From Enterobacter sp. kpr-6 (GTDB taxonomy: Bacteria; Pseudomonadota; Gammaproteobacteria; Enterobacterales; Enterobacteriaceae), in NCBI RefSeq assembly GCF_900116015.1, contig NZ_FOYH01000002.1:732365-796364 (forward strand): a DNA stretch of 64,000 bases. Direction: 5' to 3'. The translations under genes and the position numbers were made by a program. Positions 11,319 through 50,142 of the stretch are shown in pieces. Below the pieces are notes generated by a model that made no database searches, was not told where the DNA came from, and was given only the letters and a program-made list of their open reading frames with translations. The stretch's first letter is position 1. Every line of letters starts with the position of its first letter.

Positions 11319-11777
11319 TTATTCAACGGGTAATGCCGTGGTGTATTTAATCTGTTCCATGGCGAAACTTGAGGTGACATCCGACAGCCCAGGCACGCTG
11401 TTCACCAGTCGCTTGTAGAAATCATCATAGCGCTTCATGTCAGCCACCTGTACACGTAACAGGTAATCGTATTCGCCCGCCATACGCCAGAATCCTAAAA
11501 CTTCCGGCATGGCATCCACGACGGAGACAAAGCGGCAGTACCAGTCGCTGCTGTGATGCTGGGTTTTGATCAGCACAAACGCCGTCAGACCGAGCCCAAG
11601 TTTTTCGGCATCCAGTAGCGCCACGCGGCCCACCAGCACGCCGTCATCTTCCAGCCGTTTAAGGCGCTTCCAGCAGGGTGTGGTGGTCAGATTAACGGCA
11701 TCCGCCAGCGCCTGCAAAGAGAGGGTGCAGTCGGTTTGCAGCAGCGCGAGCAACTTTCTGTCAATTTTATCTAACAT
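11319..11777 (-). CDS. decR: Lrp/AsnC-family cysteine-responsive activator DecR
   Basis: A 152-residue Lrp-family regulator: N-terminal helix-turn-helix (residues 5-60, [27 protein letters not shown]) and C-terminal RAM ligand domain (about 70-145, [15 protein letters not shown]). Length equals E. coli DecR (YbaO), which activates a cysteine-detoxification gene in response to L-cysteine. The ATG at 11777 gives the family start; the frame extends upstream without a good ribosome site. Here it is divergent from a cysteine-desulfhydrase-like gene 115 bp away, as in the Pantoea ccdR-ccdA pair, so that gene is its likely direct target. Confidence 0.95.
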
Positions 11778-11892
11778 CGCCCCCTCCGGGAGAATAACTT
11801 TCTCCTTACAGTCTAATTCAAAGGTTAAATGGCAACAATTTTTTCCAGGCTTTAGGCTAATCTGGGCACAAAATGACAAACGGAAAGGCACC

Positions 11893-12936
11893 ATGAACAG
11901 CACCTGGGTGAAACACGCCATCAGCGAAATTAACGCCGACTATCAGCGTTCGGCGGACACACATCTTATTCGCCTGGCCCTGCCGGGGTTTCCGGGTATT
12001 GCGATCTATTTAAAAGATGAAAGCACCCACCCGACCGGTAGCCTGAAACACCGTCTGGCGCGGTCGCTGTTTTTGTATGGCCTGTGCAACGGCTGGATCA
12101 AAGAGGGCACGCCAATCATTGAGTCTTCATCCGGCTCGACGGCAGTATCAGAAGCCTATTTTGCCCGCCTGCTCGGGCTGCCGTTTATCGCCGTGATGCC
12201 CTCATGCACCGCGAAACGCAAAATTGAGCAGATTGAATTTTACGGCGGGCGCTGTCACTTCGTGGAAAGCGCCTGCGAAATCTACGCCGCCTCGGAAATG
12301 CTGGCGCGGGAATTGCGCGGGCACTATATGGATCAGTTCACCTTTGCCGAACGCGCGACTGACTGGCGCGGCAATAACAATATTGCTGACAGCATTTTCC
12401 GCCAGATGGAGCGCGAACCGCACCCGGTGCCGGAATGGATTGTGATGAGCGCTGGCACGGGCGGCACCTCGGCGACGATCGGGCGCTATCTGCGCTGCCA
12501 GGGTTATGACACCCGGCTGATGGTGGTCGATCCGCAGAACTCGGTGTTCCTTGATTACTGGCAGTCCCGCGACGCCAGCCTGCAAAGCCCGGTCGGGAGC
12601 AAGATTGAAGGGATTGGCCGCCCGCGCGTGGAACCGTCGTTTATCCCGGACGTGGTGGATGAGATGCTGCGCGTGCCGGATGCTGCCAGCGTTGCTACCG
12701 CGCAGTGGCTTGAAACCCAGCTCGGGCGCAAAGTGGGCGCGTCCACCGGGACGAACATGTGGGGGGCGCTGCACCTGGCGGCAAGAATGCGCGACGCAGA
12801 CGAGACGGGATCGATTGTCACCCTGCTGTGCGACAGCGGCGAGCGCTATCTCGACACCTATTACAATCCGCAGTGGGTCGCCGCTAACATCGGTGATATC
12901 GCGCCGTTTCAGGCGGAAATTGCCCGGCTGGTGTGA
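11893..12936 (+). CDS. PLP-dependent cysteine desulfhydrase-like enzyme
   Basis: The 347-residue protein is a fold-type II PLP enzyme of the cysteine synthase/cysteine desulfhydrase group. Lys52 in PTGSLKHR is the predicted Schiff-base lysine, [17 protein letters not shown] is the substrate-binding loop, and [17 protein letters not shown] is the phosphate-binding glycine loop. Divergence from decR argues for degrading cysteine to pyruvate, ammonia and sulfide (CcdA-like) rather than cysteine synthesis, but sequence alone does not settle this. The ATG at 11893 follows GGAAAGGCACC. The longer frame running back across decR is rejected. E. coli K-12 has no gene here. Confidence 0.85.
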
Positions 12937-13003: not shown

Positions 13004-13242
13004 ATTTCAGGATATGGTTGAAATATTCCCTTCCTTTCTGTGTTCATTTGAACCCCATCACAAAACAACAAATACCCACAAAAGCAATAAATCTAAAATC
13101 CCCTTTAAATTCATATCACTAAATGTAAATACCATAATAAACTCTTTTTATGACGCGCCTTTAATGTTGATTTGTATTGTTTTACTTGGCATTGTGATTT
13201 CACTACAACACAGATAACCCTTACCCGACCTTTGAGGCCGCT
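13004..13242 (+). promoter_or_regulatory. Promoter region of the unknown PTS-like operon
   Basis: About 240 bp of AT-rich DNA precede the operon. A small inverted repeat GTTCA-TT-TGAAC lies at 13042-13053. A TGTGATTTCACTACA stretch near 13193 resembles half of a CRP site. Neither is a strong match to a known operator. A 67-codon open frame spans the region (13014-13217) but lacks a ribosome site and looks like chance. Confidence 0.4.
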
Positions 13243-14829
13243 ATGAAAAAAATTGCGATTATTGGAAGCAGTGGAGGCAACCTCTACAACCTGGGTGGCG
13301 CAGAGCCAGAGAAGTTACTCCAGGAGATTTATCAGCAATGTGAAGCCGCAGGCGTCGAAGTTGCCGCCGTACAGTTTATCGCAGCGGAAGCTTCGATGGA
13401 CGTCGCCAAACCCGATACTCCGGCATCCGTGTATGCGTTAACCACAGAAAACCAACTAAAACCACAACGTATATTTCAGGGCAAGCTTTCAGAGGTGAAC
13501 ACTTCAGTGGTTGAAAGCGATCGCCAGATTGCTCAGATGATCCGCAACGGTGAGATCGACGGGATCGTCGTCATGAGCGCCGATCCGGGAAAAGCTAATC
13601 ACGATGTCTTTACCGCTGCCGTTGAGATGAAAACACCGATCGTCGGCACCGGAGGGACTTCAATGGCGCTGGTGGCCGCAAAAGGGGCGAATATTGTCGC
13701 CACTTCAGGGACAACGGGCACCACCAGCCGTACCCGCGCCGTCTCCTTTGTCGCCTCCTTGTGTAAACATTGGGGTATCAAGTACAAGCCGCAGTTGGGT
13801 AGCTCTTCCCCCTCCCAGGGCGGCTCCGGAAGAAGTCTGCTCAAACGCTTTAATATTCGCAGCATCATGATCCCCGCGCTGCCCGGCTTTATCGCCATGG
13901 CGATTGTGCTCGCCCTAAGCCACATTCCGGGGCTGGAAAAACTTAATGATATCTTTGAAATCCTGCTGAAAGGCTTGCCGGTGTTAGTGGCGGTGCTGGC
14001 GGCAAAACAGATTTCCGAACTGGATGAAGTCTCTATTGTTGCCGGGGTCGTCGCCGGGGTGCTCTCCGTTGAGGGCGGTCTGATCGGCGGAATTATCGGC
14101 GGTTTAATGGCCGGTATTTTCGTTCGCTGGTTCTTCGAGCTGTGCCTGAACTGGCGCTTCCCAATGACCACCGTAAACATTGTTGCGGGCGGAGTCTCAG
14201 GCCTTGCCGCCGGGTTGATTATGCACTATCTGCTAAGTCCTCTGGCGCTGTCGGCGGGCAATTACATTAAGCTGGCTATCGAAAGTACGCTGGCATTTAG
14301 CCCTGTTCTTGCCGGACTGCTGGCGGGGCTGGTTATTTGGCCCGCCATTCTGGGCGGCGTCTATCACGCGGTTATCCTGCCGCTAGTCCTGCTGGAGATG
14401 GAGAAATCCGGTGTCAGTTTCCTTGGCGCAGTCGATATGGTGGGTCTGGTGATGGTCGCCGCAGGGATTAATCTTGCTAACGTCATCGCTCCGCGTGAAA
14501 AAAGCGAAGCCGCCGTCGCCACGCCGGGTCTGCTCATCAACCTCGGCTTCGGCACCTTCGTTGAATCCGCCTACCCCTTCATGTTCGCCAACAAAATTGT
14601 CTTTGGCTCCGCCATTTTCTGGGCCGGAATGGGCGGCATGATGCTGGGCTTCTTTAATGTTAAAGGTGTGGCCTATGTTCCTGCTTTCGCCTCACCGTTC
14701 TTATCCAGTAATGCACTTCAGATGGCCATCGTGATGGTAACTGTAATGGCGATGACCTGCATTACCACCATTATTGCAAACCGATTTAAGGCTGTCGTAC
14801 AGAGTGAACCTGCCGCGTCAGCCCGTTAA
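13243..14829 (+). CDS. PTS EIIC-like permease fused to an unknown N-terminal domain
   Basis: This 528-residue protein has two parts. Residues 1-175 are soluble and unrecognised, beginning MKKIAIIGSSGGNLYNLGG, with a Rossmann-like strand-loop pattern and glycine/threonine-rich segments GTGGTSMALVAAKGANIV and SGTTGTTSRTR. A Ser/Gly/Gln linker (about 178-200) joins about ten hydrophobic segments from 207 on. These resemble the glucose-superfamily PTS EIIC: GGVYHAVILPLVLLE with His375, then GTFVESAYPFMFANK with Glu441 where the family has its ITEP glutamate, then a Gly-rich segment. No EIIB phospho-cysteine or EIIA phospho-histidine motif is visible and no such gene lies nearby. It is first of four same-strand genes. 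The substrate is unknown, and a transporter or sensor role is inference. Confidence 0.75.
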   Translation: MKKIAIIGSSGGNLYNLGGAEPEKLLQEIYQQCEAAGVEVAAVQFIAAEASMDVAKPDTPASVYALTTENQLKPQRIFQGKLSEVNTSVVESDRQIAQMIRNGEIDGIVVMSADPGKANHDVFTAAVEMKTPIVGTGGTSMALVAAKGANIVATSGTTGTTSRTRAVSFVASLCKHWGIKYKPQLGSSSPSQGGSGRSLLKRFNIRSIMIPALPGFIAMAIVLALSHIPGLEKLNDIFEILLKGLPVLVAVLAAKQISELDEVSIVAGVVAGVLSVEGGLIGGIIGGLMAGIFVRWFFELCLNWRFPMTTVNIVAGGVSGLAAGLIMHYLLSPLALSAGNYIKLAIESTLAFSPVLAGLLAGLVIWPAILGGVYHAVILPLVLLEMEKSGVSFLGAVDMVGLVMVAAGINLANVIAPREKSEAAVATPGLLINLGFGTFVESAYPFMFANKIVFGSAIFWAGMGGMMLGFFNVKGVAYVPAFASPFLSSNALQMAIVMVTVMAMTCITTIIANRFKAVVQSEPAASAR

Positions 14830-14856
14830 TAAATACACCAACACCAGAGGTAAACC

Positions 14857-15696
14857 ATGTTTAAAGGCGATATGAATAAAAAACGCGCCAAAGCGTTACA
14901 GAAAGTGAAAGATGCCATTGCGCTTCACGGCGGGCAAACCATCCTCAGCACAGGGATCACCGGTGACGATGCGCGTCTGGCGAAAGCAGTGTGCGAGGCG
15001 GGCGTTAAGCTACTGGAACCAAATCATCCTGCACTGGCGCTGGCACGTGGACATAAAGGCGTGAGCAACATGCATGCGGCGGAGCAGATCCGTCATGAGA
15101 TCACCAACGACCAGATGGCTGAAGCGGTACAGGGTGTGCGTAACGTGGTGCCTGACGATATTTTCATTACGGTGGGTATCGCGGGTGGCTTTACTGAAAC
15201 GTTGCCAGTACCGCTCAGCGAAACGGAGATGCTGGAGATTGCACGCGCCGGGGCGGATGGTTTACACACTCACAAATCCGATTGGGACGATCTGCAGGAT
15301 ATCGTTAATCTCGCCCATCAATACGGCTTGACCGTTGACGCGTATATTGGTCATCCGGACGATCTGCATACCTTCGGTATCCCTGCCCGTACGCCAGAAG
15401 AAGTGGCCAGCGTGGCGAAGCGGATGCAGGAAATTGGCGTCGATATGATCGGCCTGATGACCGGTATGAGCTATGAAGGCGTAGCAGCAGGCGACATTCC
15501 GCAGGCCATTAAAGATCGCCTGCGGGCGCTGGTTGGCGCAGTAGATGTACCGACGCTGGCAGAAGGCGGTATTAACCTCGCCAACGCCAAAGCGTTTAAA
15601 GATACCGGAGTCAATATTCTCGTCGTCGGTACGGCGATCGACAATATGGTCTGCAACGCCGCCAAAGAGGCCGTCACACCATTTATCACGCGTTAA
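14857..15696 (+). CDS. Phosphate-binding TIM-barrel enzyme of unknown reaction
   Basis: I do not recognise the exact family. The 279 residues read as alternating beta strands and helices of a (beta/alpha)8 barrel. The C-terminal part carries a standard phosphate-binding signature: LAEGGINLANAKAF (about 234-247) and ILVVGTAIDN (about 253-262), as in HisA/HisF, epimerases and aldolases. Possible acid-base residues include His and Asp in ADGLHTHKSDWDD and DAYIGHPDDLHTFG. It is probably an aldolase, epimerase or isomerase acting on a phosphorylated sugar delivered by the preceding permease. The ATG at 14857 has an AGAGG site at the right distance; another lies at 14872. It sits 27 bp after the permease gene. 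Confidence 0.65.
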   Translation: MFKGDMNKKRAKALQKVKDAIALHGGQTILSTGITGDDARLAKAVCEAGVKLLEPNHPALALARGHKGVSNMHAAEQIRHEITNDQMAEAVQGVRNVVPDDIFITVGIAGGFTETLPVPLSETEMLEIARAGADGLHTHKSDWDDLQDIVNLAHQYGLTVDAYIGHPDDLHTFGIPARTPEEVASVAKRMQEIGVDMIGLMTGMSYEGVAAGDIPQAIKDRLRALVGAVDVPTLAEGGINLANAKAFKDTGVNILVVGTAIDNMVCNAAKEAVTPFITR

Positions 15697-15713
15697 TACC
15701 GGGGGAAAGAGAG

Positions 15714-16577
15714 ATGTTACTGGTTACCGATCTGGATGGAACGTTACTGACATCGCAGAAGATAATTAGCCCGCGCACACGTCAGGCGCTGGCTGAGTTC
15801 CGTCAGCGTGGCGGTCTGCTGGCAGCCTGTTCCGCCAGGCCGGTTTCCTCCATGGTGCGCCTGTTACAGCAGCAGCAGGTTGATATGTTGTTTGGCTGGT
15901 GCGCCGGTTTTAATGGCGGGCAAATTCTGGAGATGACACCGCAACGTATTATTCATACTGCCGCGCTCTCCTGCATGGATCTCCGGAATATTGATCGGCA
16001 TATTTCTCTCTCCCGTTATCATCATCATTTTTTTAGCGCGCAGGCGATTTACCATCGTAACGATCGACTTATTGCCCCCTGGACGACCTATGAGGCCAGT
16101 TTATTTGAGTTACCGCTTGTTACCGCCGAACAAGGAAGGATATTTAATCGCGAGGACATTTATAAAATAACGCTGGTTGCCGAAAAAAATAAAACAGAAG
16201 CCCTTTGCATCGAGGTGAATAATAAGCTGCCTGACGGCTATGTTGCGACTACCACCGGAGAGAATTATATCGATATCCAAAGAACAGAAATAAATAAAGG
16301 CTATGCTGTTAATGAAATAATTCATCAATTCAATATTCCCTCTGAAAAAGTTGCGGCGATTGGCGACCAGCAGAACGATATCAGTATGTTTGCCGCAGCC
16401 GGAATCGGCATCGCTATGGGTAACGCGCCGGATGCAATAAAACAACAGGCCGCGTATGTAACCACGACGAATGATGATGAAGGTATCGTCTGCGCGCTGG
16501 AGTGGTTGCGTTGCTCTGCGCATCCAGTTAACATGCGCCAAAGCTCGACCCTGGCGGAAAATAATGAACCCGATTAA
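15714..16577 (+). CDS. Cof-type HAD-IIB sugar phosphatase
   Basis: The 287-residue protein has all four HAD motifs: LVTDLDGTLL near residue 7 (nucleophile and acid Asp), Ser in CSARP (motif II), Lys in INKGYAV (motif III), and AIGDQQNDISMF (motif IV). A C2B-type cap domain lies between motifs II and III. Such enzymes usually dephosphorylate small phospho-sugars or cofactors. Its place in the operon 17 bp after the TIM-barrel gene suggests it acts on a product or toxic phospho-intermediate of that pathway. The C-terminal extension (about 265-287) is not typical. Base composition becomes AT-richer in its second half than in flanking core genes. Confidence 0.85.
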   Translation: MLLVTDLDGTLLTSQKIISPRTRQALAEFRQRGGLLAACSARPVSSMVRLLQQQQVDMLFGWCAGFNGGQILEMTPQRIIHTAALSCMDLRNIDRHISLSRYHHHFFSAQAIYHRNDRLIAPWTTYEASLFELPLVTAEQGRIFNREDIYKITLVAEKNKTEALCIEVNNKLPDGYVATTTGENYIDIQRTEINKGYAVNEIIHQFNIPSEKVAAIGDQQNDISMFAAAGIGIAMGNAPDAIKQQAAYVTTTNDDEGIVCALEWLRCSAHPVNMRQSSTLAENNEPD

Positions 16578-17322
16578 AAGAAGAAAACATATTCTTGATG
16601 AATTAAACAAATTCGGTGAAGTGACCGTTATTAAGTTATCGGAAACGCTCAAAGTTACCTCAGAAACCATCCGCCGCGATCTCTCTTTACTGGAATCTGA
16701 AGGGCAAATCACCAAAATCCATGGCGGCGCGGTTAAAAAACAGGTAGTCCAGGAAGATGCATTTGGCGCGAGAATTGAAGCGCATCGCGAAGAGAAAATG
16801 GCGATTGGCAAACTTGCTGCCAGTATGGTTAGCGAACGCGACACGCTGTTTATTGACTCTTGCACGACTAATCTCATTCTGGCTGAAAAATTACCTCCAC
16901 TTGCCTTCTCCGTTATTACCAACTCCGCATTAATTGCCGATAAAATTAAAGAGCACAACATTGAGGCTCGCGTGTATATATTAGGCGGGGAGTATGATTA
17001 CCATTTTCGCGCCAATCTTGGTGTCTCGGTTTGCCAGCAAATAAATACGATTCACGCCGATATCTGCTTTATCGGTGCGGGCGGTATTTCTCCGCAACAC
17101 GGCGTGCTGGTGAAAAGTTTTGAGGAAGCGTATGTTGCCAGGGCCATGATTGCCATGAGTAAAAAATCAGTGATTCTCGCCGACCATACAAAGTTTGGTC
17201 AGGACGGGGTGATGTGCATCGCAACCTTAAATGAGATTGATCACATCATCACAGATAAAGGCTTTAAAACAACGGGCTATACACCGCAGGATTTCACCGG
17301 AAAGGTGCGTATTGCTGACTAA
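16564..17322 (+). CDS. DeoR-family transcriptional regulator
   Basis: The ATG at 16564 overlaps the HAD gene by 14 bp and gives 252 residues starting MNPIKRRKHILDELNKFG. Residues 5-58 are a DeoR helix-turn-helix (VTVIKLSETLKVTSETIRRDLSLLESEGQ as two helices), with KIHGGAV following as is typical. The C-terminal domain (about 75-235) is the DeoR sensor, related to ribose-5-phosphate isomerase folds, with DSCTTNLILAEKL and FIGAGGISPQHG. Such proteins usually repress a sugar catabolic operon and are released by a phosphorylated sugar. It is probably the local repressor of the four-gene unit. A longer frame into the HAD gene is rejected. Confidence 0.9.
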   Translation: MNPIKRRKHILDELNKFGEVTVIKLSETLKVTSETIRRDLSLLESEGQITKIHGGAVKKQVVQEDAFGARIEAHREEKMAIGKLAASMVSERDTLFIDSCTTNLILAEKLPPLAFSVITNSALIADKIKEHNIEARVYILGGEYDYHFRANLGVSVCQQINTIHADICFIGAGGISPQHGVLVKSFEEAYVARAMIAMSKKSVILADHTKFGQDGVMCIATLNEIDHIITDKGFKTTGYTPQDFTGKVRIAD

Positions 17323-17398: not shown

Positions 17399-18217
17399 TT
17401 ATTCGGGGGAATAAGGAAGAGTTGGATCGGTCAGCCAATGAGTCAAATAATGCGACACCGCCTGATTCTGGCAATGTCCGATAACCGGTAAGTGGGGAAG
17501 CGCGGCGATAAGTTGTGGCATGGCGTTGCCCATAATCATCCCGCGTCCGACGGCGGCGAGCATTTCATGGTCATTCATCGCATCGCCAAAGGCCATGCAC
17601 TCCTGCATCGTAATGCCCAGTTGCCCGCTTAAAATCGTCAGCGCCGAACCTTTGTTACAGCCCACGGGCAGCACTTCAAGGCAGTTAAACGCTGAAAAAC
17701 AGATGTGCGCCCGCTCGCCCAGCGCCTCATTTAACTGCACGCGCAGGCGGTTGAGATCCTCGTGTTCGCCGCAGAAACAGATTTTGGTCACGTCGTGAGC
17801 GCTCAGGCGCTTGAGATCGACCACCTGATAGCGAAACCCGCTGTAGCTGTGAAACGCCAGAATGCGGGGATCGTCGTAATCAGTCAGCCAGCCGCTGTCG
17901 TTAAATACGTGCACGCTGGCGTCGGTATCCCATTTGCTGTGCAGCACCTGATGAGCCACATCCGGGCTGAGATCCTGGCTGTGCAACAGATCCCCTTCAA
18001 GGGAGTGGATCCGCGTGCCGTTGCCGGTGATCAGAAACGCATCCAGCGTCAGCAGGCCCAGCAGATGGCGCATCTCCAGCGCATGACGGCCGGTGGCAAA
18101 CGCCAGCGTGATGTCGCGATCGCGTAATTGCCGCAGCGTCGCAACAGTTTGCTCACCCAAACGGTGGTCGGGCATCAGCAAAGTGCCGTCCATATCAAAT
18201 GCAGCCAGTCGCGCCAT
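17399..18217 (-). CDS. cof: HMP-PP phosphatase Cof
   Basis: Cof is a HAD-IIB hydrolase known to cleave 4-amino-2-methyl-5-hydroxymethylpyrimidine pyrophosphate, a thiamine intermediate. The 272 residues match E. coli Cof in length and sequence, with motif [13 protein letters not shown] at the N terminus, motif [10 protein letters not shown], motif III Lys in NKGSALTIL and motif [15 protein letters not shown]2 cap lies between. It is divergent from ybaE, as in E. coli. In this genome a second Cof-type gene lies about 0.8 kb away in the preceding accessory operon; the two are clearly different proteins. Confidence 0.95.
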
Positions 18218-46015: not shown

Positions 46016-47284
46016 GTGATCCAGTTTATTGAAGGCAAGGTCGTCCCGATCCTTATTCAGGTAGGCGAAAATAAAATGCTGGTGGCGGTGCGTAACGGGA
46101 TTGCGCTGACGCTGCCGTTTACGATTACCGGCAGTCTGTTTCTGATCGTGGCGAATCTGCCCATTCCCGGCTGGGCGGAATTTTTAGGCCCGGCGGCGAA
46201 TAAACTCAGCGCCCCGGTCGCCGTCACCTTCGGCGCGATTGGTTTGATCTCGGCTATCGGCATCAGCTACAACCTGGCGAAAGAGTACCAGCTTAACGCC
46301 CTCACCTGCAGCGCCGTGGCGATGGTGGTGTTTCTGCTCGCCCAGCTTAACGAGAATTATCAACTTAACGTCGATAACCTTGGCGCGGCGGGCCTGTTCT
46401 CGGCAATTATTCTCGCCATCGCCACCGTGCAGATCATGCGCTTTTTTGTGGTGAGAAACATCGTCATTAAACTGCCGGACGGCGTGCCGCCCGCCGTCGC
46501 GCAATCATTTGTCAGCCTGATCCCGGCGGCGGCGATCATCACGCTGGTGTGGCTGGTGCGGGTGATGCTGAACTTCGATATCAACAGCTTCTTTACCTGG
46601 CTGGTCAGCCCGCTGGTGAGCGGTTTAGGCTCGCTGCCGGGCATGCTGGTATTAATCTTCCTGATTTCTCTGCTCTGGTGCTGCGGTATCCACGGCGACA
46701 ACATTCTCTCTGGCATCACCAGCCCCATCTTCCTGAAATATATCGCTGAAAACACCCAGGCATATCTCAATCATCAGCCCATCCCGCACATCACCGCCGA
46801 TGGCTTTTACATCGTCTTTATGTGCCTCGGCGGAACTGGCGCGACGCTGGGCCTGGTGCTGGCGATGCTGCGCTCCCGAAGCAAAATGTATAAATCGGTC
46901 GGCAAGCTCTCGCTGCCCTCGGCGATTTTCTGCATCAACGAACCGGTCATTTTTGGCTGCCCGATCGTCTTTAACCCTTTACTGATGATCCCTTTCACCT
47001 TAACGCCGATGATTTTATGCACCGCAACCTACAGCCTGATGTATTTCGACATTATCGGACGCCCGGTGCTGCAAATTCCGTGGACCATGCCGCCGATATT
47101 TGCCGCCTGGTTCGTGACGGGCGGCAATATTCCGGCGGTGATCTGGTCGGTCTGCACCATCGTTATTTCGGCGCTGGTTTACCTGCCCTTTTTCAAAATT
47201 GCCGAACGCCGGCAAATGGAAAAAGAAGCGGCCGCCCAGGATGCAGAAAACGCCAGCACCACCGTCTCTGATTCAGCACTGTAA
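46016..47284 (+). CDS. PTS EIIC permease, Lac/Cel family
   Basis: This 422-residue protein has about ten hydrophobic segments and belongs to the lactose/cellobiose EIIC group (CelB/ChbC). Landmarks are IHGDNILSG, and INEPVIFGCPIVFNP near residue 321, the conserved substrate-binding glutamate motif. It starts at a GTG (46016) with GGAGGAG 5 bases upstream. It should import a phosphorylated beta-disaccharide. No EIIA or EIIB gene lies in the cluster, so it must share them with another system. Downstream genes suggest an amino-sugar-containing beta-glucoside such as chitobiose. That is inference. Confidence 0.88.
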   Translation: MIQFIEGKVVPILIQVGENKMLVAVRNGIALTLPFTITGSLFLIVANLPIPGWAEFLGPAANKLSAPVAVTFGAIGLISAIGISYNLAKEYQLNALTCSAVAMVVFLLAQLNENYQLNVDNLGAAGLFSAIILAIATVQIMRFFVVRNIVIKLPDGVPPAVAQSFVSLIPAAAIITLVWLVRVMLNFDINSFFTWLVSPLVSGLGSLPGMLVLIFLISLLWCCGIHGDNILSGITSPIFLKYIAENTQAYLNHQPIPHITADGFYIVFMCLGGTGATLGLVLAMLRSRSKMYKSVGKLSLPSAIFCINEPVIFGCPIVFNPLLMIPFTLTPMILCTATYSLMYFDIIGRPVLQIPWTMPPIFAAWFVTGGNIPAVIWSVCTIVISALVYLPFFKIAERRQMEKEAAAQDAENASTTVSDSAL

Positions 47285-47295
47285 AAGGACACCTT

Positions 47296-48624
47296 ATGAA
47301 AAAGCTTAAAATCGTTACCATCGGCGGCGGGTCCAGCTATACGCCGGAACTCATCGACGGCTTTATCAAACGCTACGCTGAATTACCGGTCAGCGACTAT
47401 TACCTGCTGGATATTGAAGAGGGGCGTGAAAAGCTGGAAATCGTTGGCAAACTGGCAAAAAGAATGGTGGAAAAAGCCGGTATTCCGATGACGATCCATT
47501 TAACGCTGGATCGGGAAGAAGCATTAAAAGACGCGGATTTCGTCACCACTCAATTGCGCGTCGGGTTTCTTGATGCGCGCATTAATGATGAAAAAATCCC
47601 GCTTAAATATGGCGTGCTCGGCCAGGAAACCACCGGCCCCGGCGGATTTATGAAAGCGCAGCGTACCATTCCGGTGCTGCTGGATATTTGCCGCGACATG
47701 GAAAAATATTGCCCCAACGCGTGGCTGATTAATTTCACCAACCCGGCAGGCATTGTTACCGAAGCCATTGCCCGTCATTCTTCCATCAAATCGCTGGGTA
47801 TTTGCAGCGGCGCAAACAGTATGCTGATGGATATTGCCAAAGCCTATGACGTGGAAAAATCGCAGGTCTACGCGCGGATCATGGGATTAAATCATCTGAT
47901 CTTTGCCGATCGCATTTATATCGACGGCGCAGACGTCACGGATGATTTTATTGAAAAACTGGCACAGGGGAGCGCGACAAACGCCCTAAAAAATATCCCG
48001 GATATTGGCTTTTCCGCGCGCTTTGCGAAGGCGCTGCGTATGTACCCCATCTCCTATCTGAAATACTTTTTCCTCACCCGCGAAATGGTGGACGCCGCCC
48101 TTGCCGATCAAAAAACCAAAGGCACCCGTGGGGAACAAACCCGGGAAATTGAGCGTAAATTATTTGAGCTGTATCAGGACGAAACCCTGACCGGCAAGCC
48201 GAAAGAGCTGGAGCAGCGCGGCGGGGCCTGGTACTCGGATACCGCTTGCTCGATTATCAGCGCCATCTATAACGATAAAAAAGAAATCCACGTGGTGAAT
48301 ACCACCAATCGCGGCGCAACGGGCGATCTGCCGGATCACGTCACCCTTGAAACCAACGCGGTGATCGACCGCCAGGGTGCTCACCCGCTGGCTTACGGCC
48401 CGCTGCCGGTGAAAATCCGTGGCCTGATCCAGAGCGTCAAAGCCTATGAAGAACTCACCGTCGAGGCGGCCATCACCGGTGATTACGACACCGCGCTGCT
48501 GGCGCTGACGATTAACCCGCTGGTGCCTTCCGCAAACGTCGCCGAGCAGATCCTCAACGAGTATCTGGAAGTGAACCAGCGCTATCTACCGCAATATTTC
48601 AACAACGCTAAGGAGCAGCAATGA
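47296..48624 (+). CDS. GH4 6-phospho-beta-glucosidase
   Basis: A 442-residue glycoside hydrolase family 4 enzyme of the CelF/LicH/ChbF type, which uses NAD+ and a metal ion in a redox elimination mechanism. The N-terminal NAD-binding loop is VTIGGGSSYTPELIDG. Metal ligands are Cys in LGICSGANSML and His in IMGLNHLIF, and the Asn-Pro site is in INFTNPAGIVT. It should hydrolyse the 6-phosphorylated disaccharide made by the preceding permease. It starts 11 bp after that gene and overlaps the next by 4 bp (ATGA). Confidence 0.92.
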   Translation: MKKLKIVTIGGGSSYTPELIDGFIKRYAELPVSDYYLLDIEEGREKLEIVGKLAKRMVEKAGIPMTIHLTLDREEALKDADFVTTQLRVGFLDARINDEKIPLKYGVLGQETTGPGGFMKAQRTIPVLLDICRDMEKYCPNAWLINFTNPAGIVTEAIARHSSIKSLGICSGANSMLMDIAKAYDVEKSQVYARIMGLNHLIFADRIYIDGADVTDDFIEKLAQGSATNALKNIPDIGFSARFAKALRMYPISYLKYFFLTREMVDAALADQKTKGTRGEQTREIERKLFELYQDETLTGKPKELEQRGGAWYSDTACSIISAIYNDKKEIHVVNTTNRGATGDLPDHVTLETNAVIDRQGAHPLAYGPLPVKIRGLIQSVKAYEELTVEAAITGDYDTALLALTINPLVPSANVAEQILNEYLEVNQRYLPQYFNNAKEQQ

Positions 48625-49343
48625 ACATAGATATCAAACAGGATTACCCGGAACTGTGCGCCGCTGTTGCACAGCAGGTCATCGACTGCGTGGCGGCCAA
48701 ACCCGACGCGCTGATTTGCATCGCAGGCGGCGACACGCCGCTCGGCGTCTTTGCGGCACTGGTGGAGGCCAGCAATGATGGACGGGTGGATTTCAGCCGG
48801 GCGTTTTTTCTGGGCCTCGACGAATGGCTTGGCCTGGGCCGGGACGATAAAGGCAGTTGCCGGGAAATGGTCTGGCACCATTTTTTCGACAAACTGCCGC
48901 TGCGGGATGAGCAGATTTGCTTTTTTGACGGCCTGACAAACGATCCGGCGGCGGAATGCCAGCGCGTTGACGCGTTTATTGCCGCCCACCAGCAGATCGA
49001 CATTGTGGTATTAGGCATCGGCATGAACGGGCATATAGGCTTTAACGAACCGGGCGTGTCAGCGGAAAATACCTGCCACGTTGTCGATCTCGATCCTGTG
49101 ACTCAGGCGGTATCGGTGAAATATTTCGGCGAACCGCGCGACGTTAAGCAGGGAATATCGCTGGGGATTAAAACGCTTCGCGCGGCGAAGCGCATGATCC
49201 TGATGGCCAGCGGCGAGAAAAAAAGCGCCATCGTGGCCAAAACCGTGCAGACAGAAAGTAGCAGTGATATTCCGTCCACCCTGGTTAAGGATCACCCTAA
49301 CGTAACGTTAATGGTGGATCGGGCGGCGGGCGGTCAGCTTTAA
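48621..49343 (+). CDS. Glucosamine-6-phosphate deaminase-like protein
   Basis: This 240-residue NagB/AgaI-family protein is shorter than E. coli NagB (266) and nearer in length to the compact Gram-positive forms. The catalytic Asp67 is in FLGLDEWLGL (NagB Asp72). The second motif is GIGMNGHIGFNEPG with His138 and Glu143; the position of NagB Asp141 is Asn136, which is common in the compact group. It should convert glucosamine-6-phosphate, or a related amino sugar phosphate, to fructose-6-phosphate. Its presence suggests the disaccharide contains glucosamine or its N-acetyl form, although no deacetylase (NagA) is present here. Confidence 0.85.
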   Translation: MNIDIKQDYPELCAAVAQQVIDCVAAKPDALICIAGGDTPLGVFAALVEASNDGRVDFSRAFFLGLDEWLGLGRDDKGSCREMVWHHFFDKLPLRDEQICFFDGLTNDPAAECQRVDAFIAAHQQIDIVVLGIGMNGHIGFNEPGVSAENTCHVVDLDPVTQAVSVKYFGEPRDVKQGISLGIKTLRAAKRMILMASGEKKSAIVAKTVQTESSSDIPSTLVKDHPNVTLMVDRAAGGQL

Positions 49344-49344
49344 T

Positions 49345-50079
49345 TCAGCGCTCAATGCGCATGTTTTTCACCCGGAAAATATCGGCGCGGTTGAAACTGA
49401 GCGAAAAGTTAAACACAGTTTTGTTATCCAGCCGCGTGACTTCGGTGATTTTCAGCATGGGCAGACCGGGGGCAATATTCAGTAAACCCGCCATTTCTTC
49501 ATCAAACAATGCCGCTTCGATAATCGAATCGGCATCTTTAATTTTGCGTTGGGTAAACTCTTCGATATAGCGATACAGCGATCCCTGCCGTAATACCTCT
49601 TCCGGGATCTCAGGGATCACGCTAAGGGGGATATTACTCTCTTCGATCAGTACCGGAATATCATCCAGCAGGCGGATACGGCGGATAAAATAGATCTTCT
49701 CGCCGGGCGTAATATCCAGATGGCGGGCAACGTTACGGTCGGCGTCGATGACGTCAAAAGCCAGTAACTGGCTGCTGACTTTCACCTGCCCCTGAAATTC
49801 GCGGGAAAAACCTAAAATGCTGTCGCTTTTTTCATTGTTGAGAATATAGATGCTGGTGTCGGTGTTCTTCAGGACAAACATCCCTTTGCCGTGGATGCGC
49901 TCGATAAAACCATCCTGCACCAGACTGGCCATCGCTTTTTGCACCGTGACACGGGTGACCTGATATTCACGGGCGATGTCGCGCTCGGAGGGAATGCTCT
50001 CACCAACAAGATATTTGTGAGCGAGAATATCGTGCTTAAGTTTTTCCTTAATCTCCAGATATTTATGCTGCTTTTCCAA
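49345..50079 (-). CDS. GntR-family regulator with UTRA domain
   Basis: The TTG at 50079 is chosen because it follows GGAGGTGCTT. It gives 244 residues, typical of HutC-subfamily GntR proteins. An N-terminal winged helix (about 8-75, IPSERDIAREYQVTRVTVQKAMASL) is followed by a UTRA effector domain (about 95-240, GEKIYFIRRIRLLDDIPVLIEES). The 3' end is two bases from the deaminase gene's stop. It probably represses the convergent sugar operon through the palindrome at 45971-45986 and is relieved by a sugar phosphate. An alternative TTG at 50142 overlaps the end of thiI. The upstream hairpin suggests possible read-through from thiI. Confidence 0.88.
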   Translation of the reverse strand: MEKQHKYLEIKEKLKHDILAHKYLVGESIPSERDIAREYQVTRVTVQKAMASLVQDGFIERIHGKGMFVLKNTDTSIYILNNEKSDSILGFSREFQGQVKVSSQLLAFDVIDADRNVARHLDITPGEKIYFIRRIRLLDDIPVLIEESNIPLSVIPEIPEEVLRQGSLYRYIEEFTQRKIKDADSIIEAALFDEEMAGLLNIAPGLPMLKITEVTRLDNKTVFNFSLSFNRADIFRVKNMRIER

Positions 50080-50106
50080 AAGCACCTCCGATCGGTCCAG
50101 AATCTG

Positions 50107-50133
50107 TGCCCGGTAACCTTGCGCTACCGGGCA
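50107..50133 (-). terminator. Hairpin after thiI
   Basis: Perfect 9-bp arms TGCCCGGTA / TACCGGGCA, 10 bp past the thiI stop and inside the leader of the GntR gene. No U run follows on the minus strand, so it may be an attenuator rather than a full terminator. Confidence 0.5.
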
Positions 50134-50142
50134 TTCGGGCAA

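Follow-up and report, generated by a model that had tools for sequence, protein, structure and literature searches.

Transport through the phosphotransferase system (PTS) requires enzymes IIA and IIB (EIIA and EIIB). Enzyme IIC (EIIC) proteins, the textbook translocators of sugars, rely on EIIB both for energy and for the chemistry. The described proteins closest to the transporter analyzed here are EIICs of the Glc superfamily, including PtsG, TreB and MalT. In gene content, a near relative is the Escherichia coli sgc operon, which we take to encode an EIIC, the BtpA-type barrel SgcQ and the DeoR-type regulator SgcR, and presumably its own EIIA and EIIB. Here we describe an operon of four genes, at positions 13243-17322 in a 64,000-nucleotide stretch of the Enterobacter sp. 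kpr-6 genome (contig NZ_FOYH01000002.1), hereafter called the window. The genes encode a transporter (A; the protein in the window is P0001), a TIM barrel (B), a haloacid dehalogenase (HAD) phosphatase (C) and a DeoR regulator (D). The operon resembles sgc in combining an EIIC, a TIM barrel and a DeoR protein; unlike sgc, it contains no EIIA or EIIB. A resembles the Glc-superfamily EIICs in the fold of its membrane half and in an invariant His at the GMHH motif. However, it scores below the gathering cut-off of the PTS_EIIC family (PF02378), lacks an EIIB domain and carries an unrelated N-terminal domain instead. This anatomy, in which a different domain occupies the place of EIIB in a family with the EIIC fold, is unusual and well supported.

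The AlphaFold2 model of A, built from 48 sequences, has a mean predicted local distance difference test score (pLDDT) of 82.5 and a predicted template modeling score (pTM) of 0.65. Structural comparison with VIA-align placed the membrane half closest to an integrative TreB-type model (entry PTTBC, which we take to be TreB; Z 26.1 over 311 residues), a model of PtsG (Z 21.9) and the crystal structure of MalT (Z 18.6 over 305 residues, root mean square deviation (rmsd) 3.7). These three best rows span 305-318 residues. They are followed by MtlA, a second MalT entry, ChbC and the cryo-electron microscopy (cryo-EM) structures of PtsG at Z 10.6-13.9, and the first row that is not an EIIC scores 9.7. 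Foldseek gave concordant results, with E 2.1e-9 to its best match, the TreB-type model, and 1.9e-5 to cryo-EM PtsG. The membrane half is predicted to adopt the Glc-superfamily EIIC fold, an assignment based on the model and not on A's own sequence.

Substrate-site residues may also be retained. A profile of the membrane half was run on 45 open reading frames (ORFs) from the PTS loci of the window's genome and from locus L002 (L and G numbers are our labels for loci and genomes); E-values from so small a set are not comparable to those of library searches. The profile matched L002 (8.8e-14), L112 (2.3e-10) and a FruA-type protein (2e-4). L002 is an EIIB-EIIC protein (PF02378, 113.8 bits), and L112 is an EIIC protein that also matches PF02378. 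In both, the second His of GMHH aligns with H375, the sole Cys or His that is invariant in A (48/48 sequences; the next are C301 in 35 and H176 in 33). E441 is located in the segment GTFVE(A/S)AYPF, in register with the Glu in ISEGAIPF of the more weakly matched FruA-type protein. The alignments suggest that the substrate-site His of EIICs is kept as H375, and the Glu perhaps as E441.

Searches with the P0001 sequence returned neither a Pfam or NCBIfam family (E<=0.01) nor a PDB chain (E<=0.1), and the whole-protein score is below the PF02378 gathering cut-off. When the 48 A-family members were scanned singly, seven matched PF02378 at E<=10, with a best E of 5.4e-7. Ten members were rescanned at E<=0.05, and L024 gave the only PF02378 match, at 19.7 bits compared to a cut-off of 30.7. 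An earlier note on this DNA, made from the sequence alone, had let its EIIC-like reading depend on a match to this family. The window's A fails to match by sequence, and we consider that the structural match outweighs this failure. Several observations weigh against the EIIC assignment. A is not among the 35 PF02378 matches of its own genome. The two best VIA-align rows are themselves models and not experimental structures, and experimental PtsG structures fit A more poorly (Z 12.1 and 10.7, rmsd 8.4-8.7). By hhalign, whole A aligns weakly with 15 EIICs (probability 58.6, E 9.6e-5); restricting the query to the membrane half gave an even weaker match (local E 0.0049, probability 7.2), and nothing useful was obtained globally. 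In the two best EIIC alignments, those with L002 and L112, E441 is one residue off the Glu of GITEP.

What sets A apart is its N-terminal domain, which sits where some EIIBC proteins carry EIIB. Folded alone, it gave a flavodoxin/Rossmann-like model. Its invariant loops among the 48 sequences, S9-S10-G11-G12, S112/D114, G135-T136-G137-G138 and S155-G156-T157-T158, cluster at the ends of strands 3-9, 107-111, 132-136 and 150-155. Such strand-end loops are the usual ligand site in this fold. The VIA-align matches vary in function, including a flavo di-iron protein (Z 10.4), a type II dehydroquinase (9.5) and a UPF0261 protein (8.6 over 143 residues), and Foldseek found no match at E<=0.001. The domain shares its fold with the N-terminal domain of UPF0261/Tm-1 proteins. 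However, no sequence match to them was seen, UPF0261 is not among the 25 of 28 matched Pfam families listed for the 48 A sequences, and flavoproteins and type II dehydroquinases score equally or higher. No Cys or His is invariant in the domain across the 48 sequences, and it is therefore not a canonical EIIA or EIIB. A Lac/Cel-type EIIB was rejected for the lack of a conserved Cys; none appears among the 50 VIA-align rows listed, which by itself is no proof. Among 398 genomes of the phylum of G066, the domain was matched three times, each time inside an ORF of 532-549 residues. The earlier note had singled out an EIIC-like permease without phosphotransfer domains. Family searches and the modeled fold bear this out, and what it overlooked, the N-terminal domain, is the unusual feature.

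B belongs to the same family over its full length (residues 1-277) as PDB 4ml9, an uncharacterized protein, presumably from Sebaldella termitidis, whose title gives no function. The C-terminal third of B (residues about 180-263) partly resembles the phosphate-binding barrels HxlA, NanE, ThiE and HisA. These matches are partial and below curated cut-offs, and the conserved motifs of B, GITGDDAR, EPNHP and HTHK, were matched to none of them. The BtpA profile matched one of 19 B proteins, at 0.038. The DUF7916 barrels are similar to B in being TIM barrel-like proteins tied to PTS genes, in G012 (checked with Pfam) and G002 (by eye). DUF7916 was rejected as the family of B: hhalign gave a probability of 15.5% and E 0.0017, and PF25509 matched two of the 19 B proteins, with a best E of 3e-5. 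At the loci L124, L126 and L127, DUF7916 genes adjoin a UTRA-GntR gene (window's genome) or close a run of EIIC-EIIB-EIIC/EIIB-oxidoreductase genes (G012 and, judged by eye, G002).

C scores 165.9 bits with TIGR00099 (cut-off 137), and D scores 57.2 bits with PF08220 (HTH_DeoR) and 151.8 with PF00455 (DeoRC; cut-off 31.8). Inverted pairs of the AAAACAAC type are found upstream of A in all five enteric regions examined. In a control of 200 shuffles per region, the number of shuffles with a pair as good was 0 for L008, 2 for L014 and 3 for L012, which supports the pairing there, and 14 for L003, where support is lower. The similar pairs in these four loci point weakly to a candidate operator of D. 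The earlier note matched no known pathway to the set, and Pfam, NCBIfam and PDB titles likewise gave us no pathway name for either A or B; the A family is nameless in the family libraries searched. The names given by annotators (PTS sugar transporter, histidine biosynthesis protein) indicate no substrate or pathway. Within the literature collection searched, we found no paper on 4ML9 or Saro_1862, and no title or abstract on the operon.

To survey the A family, one genome per species was scanned for 84,980 species. This gave 121 pattern matches, of which 92 were confirmed relatives and 80 were kept. B, C and D were sought on the same strand within 3.5 kb downstream of A (tblastn at 1e-8). A is present in five phyla. 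Its loci comprise 45 in which none of B, C and D was detected, 19 with all four genes (ABCD), 10 with A and B (AB) and 6 with A and C (AC). B directly follows A wherever both occur (29/80 loci), and the two genes overlap by 4 bp in L068, L071, L073 and L076. B was sought genome-wide in 29 genomes, 28 of which carry A with no B next to it; none of these 28 contains a strong B match, and three contain weak ones (4.6e-4 to 2.4e-6). Therefore, A does not need B, C or D. The four genes of the earlier note are not one obligate unit. Some ABCD loci have a short or split C or D. In three AC loci (L011, L016 and L019) the C homologue is 41% identical to C, and in the other three it is a distant HAD (23-38%). 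A DeoR or UTRA-GntR regulator accompanies A in the ABCD loci and in six of the 10 AB loci.

Our preferred proposal, which we rate about as likely as not, is that these genes form a catabolic import operon, in which A brings in a sugar or sugar-like compound, its N-terminal domain controls or completes this step, B and C carry out phosphosugar chemistry and D represses the genes. The compound would enter through the EIIC-fold domain with the help of H375 and perhaps E441. The flavodoxin-like domain in the place of EIIB would bind a small, probably phosphorylated ligand, and would gate or complete transport. Inside the cell, the compound would be, or turn into, a phosphosugar. B, a TIM barrel of the phosphate-binding type, might isomerize or cleave it, and C might dephosphorylate either it or a by-product. 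D would repress the operon until a phosphosugar inducer appears. We consider import by A, with the N-terminal domain as a ligand-binding module for control or chemistry, the most likely reading. Other observations count against the proposal. The 45 loci in which B, C and D were not detected indicate that the phosphosugar-enzyme part is not general, and the C proteins of Yersinia and Morganella share only 25-33% identity with that of the window, across most of the protein. No gene neighbor of A names a sugar. The operator pair in the window is at chance level, with 78 of 200 shuffles as good. Enzyme I, found in most of the A-bearing genomes tested, also occurs in 72 of 201 genomes from the Chloroflexota, to which G775 belongs, so its co-occurrence with A says little.

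Alternatively, A could be an ordinary group-translocating EIIC served in trans by the EIIB (and EIIA) of other PTS transporters, with a merely regulatory N-terminal domain. The conservation of H375 and the alignment of E441 with the FruA-type Glu would fit this. Of 29 A-bearing genomes tested for Enzyme I, a set that does not include the window's own, 26 score above the cut-off, and the three misses are assemblies of 1.4-1.7 Mb. In the window's genome (G000, 4.48 Mb), the many PF02378 matches are accompanied by 21 to PF00367 (Glc-type EIIB). However, all 21 are in ORFs of 459-686 residues, leaving no free-standing Glc-type EIIB there; other EIIB families were not searched. Pfam, NCBIfam and PDB searches found no EIIA or EIIB among the operon genes, since B, C and D belong to other families, and none was found among 27 different neighbor proteins of A scanned in relatives, a subset of all neighbors. 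We consider borrowing in trans unlikely. The same absence of linked EIIA and EIIB, and the lack of conserved Cys or His in the N-terminal domain, would suit a PTS-independent facilitator, through which free sugar diffuses in before a kinase phosphorylates it or the N-terminal domain itself acts on it. A precedent is the PTS permease GalABC: from work in a ptsI strain, it was deduced that GalABC carries xylose and leaves it unphosphorylated (PMC10989795). However, the operon contains no kinase gene, and the EIIC His is kept in A. We consider a facilitator unlikely as well.

A third possibility is that A works as an exporter in phosphosugar detoxification, with C stripping a toxic phosphosugar and A expelling the free sugar. 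The pairing of A with a 41% identical C homologue in the absence of B, in L011, L016 and L019, is compatible with this. However, the HADs of the other three AC loci are distant, and no C homologue was detected downstream of A in the 45 loci without partners or in the 10 AB loci, where other phosphatases were not sought. In addition, EIICs are importers as a rule. Export appears very improbable. In a bolder reading, the N-terminal domain would be a new functional substitute for EIIB, feeding phosphate to the sugar carried by its own EIIC, or trapping it chemically, without a phospho-Cys or phospho-His. We think this a long shot.

In a tree of 48 A sequences, 12 enteric proteins form one clade (support 100/100) inside a larger set of Bacillota and enterics (100/99). 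The support does not settle which Bacillota are nearest to the enteric clade (80/87). The AC and A-only enteric rows fall within this clade. A single entry of A into enterics followed by loss of B would fit the tree, whose root is arbitrary. The 10 AB loci consist of six with a member of the UTRA-GntR cluster (two of them scanned), three from Chloroflexota and one at a contig edge. In the three Chloroflexota loci (L070, L077 and L078), a divergent protein of 356-361 residues is found beside A and B, and the L077 copy has no Pfam match. B without A nearby occurs on a Nostoc plasmid, and two of the 299 genomes searched from G066's phylum contain B. In L092 and L133 (G593 and G1069), A, B, a GntR-like gene and a gene for imidazoleglycerol-phosphate dehydratase (PF00475 in L092) stand in a row. 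The arrangement may point to a link between pathways, or the his gene may simply be a scattered one.

Neighboring genes were considered as guides to the substrate. They include alanine racemase and aminotransferase (L011), CNNM (Paenibacillus), an FMN-dependent dehydrogenase (Morganella) and a glycoside hydrolase family 53 galactanase (L028). They are not common across hosts and were taken as local context. A riboswitch upstream of stand-alone Bacillota A genes was also rejected: in eight loci, no Rfam family was found on the strand of A just upstream. The cyclic di-GMP-I aptamer in L056 (7327-7413) points away from A on the opposite strand. L050, L054, L056, L064 and L072 share a nearly identical site of 24 bases about 48-76 bp upstream of A. 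As a regulon marker it indicated no other gene, being present once per genome and always at A (<=3 mismatches, 5/5 genomes).

The operon is accessory. A is missing from all three congeners, and a search of 60 relatives gave two matches, the window's own genome and a distant EIIBC protein at 5.3e-4. B occurs in one of 398 Pseudomonadota, which is the window itself. Among 5,426 genomes of E. coli, three carry the operon, with 80.8% identity. Its four genes adjoin yjbD and rluF both in E. coli DSM 103246 and in Salmonella Infantis SARB27. In L003 they adjoin a YjbD-family gene and a pseudouridine synthase gene (by Pfam), and five more Citrobacter or Superficieibacter loci do likewise by cluster membership. 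In the window, the operon lies between decR with a gene for a pyridoxal phosphate-dependent enzyme (PF00291) on one side and cof on the other. In the single E. coli region viewed, that of ER1709, decR and cof are directly adjacent, forming an empty site. The differing insertion sites and the empty site indicate that the operon was apparently acquired horizontally as a unit. A was found on none of 72,556 plasmid records. Viral contigs, which were searched for B and not for A, gave 52 pattern matches, none confirmed. The sole record with A in a phage collection, AFYI01000007.1, is a 501-kb Salmonella chromosome contig filed under phages.

Much of the earlier note's description of the locus agrees with these results. 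The ORF coordinates reproduce exactly its four same-strand genes, in which 27 bp separate A from B and 17 bp separate B from C, while C and D overlap by 14 bp, and the insertion it placed between the decR-type pair and cof is seen in the comparison with ER1709. The AT-rich shift it described in the last two genes is real: the GC content is 0.544 in A, 0.546 in B, 0.485 in C and 0.449 in D, compared to 0.549 in the whole window; the 306 bp that precede A have 0.382. The phosphorylated substrate that the note suggested stays a proposal here, as does the sugar nature of the substrate. Its suggestion of horizontal acquisition is supported by patchy presence, differing sites and the empty site more than by base composition.

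Table 1. Positions of the operon genes, domains and bordering features in the window.
Feature	Position	Strand	Basis
decR-type regulator, upstream border	11319..11921	-	ORF; comparison with E. coli ER1709
Weak candidate operator of D: AAAACAACAAATACCCACA (13062-13080) paired with TGTTGATTTGTATTGTTTT in inverted orientation (13165-13183)	13062..13183		
Gene A, 528 residues; N-terminal flavodoxin/Rossmann-like domain and EIIC-fold membrane domain (predicted)	13243..14829	+	ORF; AlphaFold2 model; structural matches to EIICs
A residues 1-185, soluble domain	13243..13797	+	pLDDT 91.8 when folded alone; conservation over 48 sequences
A residues 205-518, predicted EIIC-fold domain	13855..14796	+	VIA-align Z with EIIC models and the MalT crystal structure; H375; EIIC alignments
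Gene B, 279 residues; TIM barrel of the PDB 4ml9 family	14857..15696	+	E 9.4e-121 to 4ml9
Gene C, 287 residues; Cof-type HAD-IIB phosphatase with DLDGT and GDQQND	15714..16577	+	TIGR00099; motifs read
Gene D, 252 residues; DeoR/GlpR-type regulator	16564..17322	+	PF08220 and PF00455 above cut-off
cof, downstream border	17399..18217	-	ORF; adjoins decR in E. coli ER1709

A second PTS locus is found in the window at 46016-50142. It encodes an EIIC (PF02378), a family 4 glycosidase, a glucosamine-6-phosphate isomerase-like protein and a UTRA-GntR regulator.

The operon gives a biological setting to 4ml9, a solved structure without a function. If the N-terminal domain does replace EIIB, A would be a self-contained sugar translocator, which would explain the absence of linked EIIA and EIIB and the 45 of 80 loci without B, C and D. 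An EIIC family that occurs in five phyla with another domain in the place of EIIB could reveal another way of energizing or controlling an EIIC.

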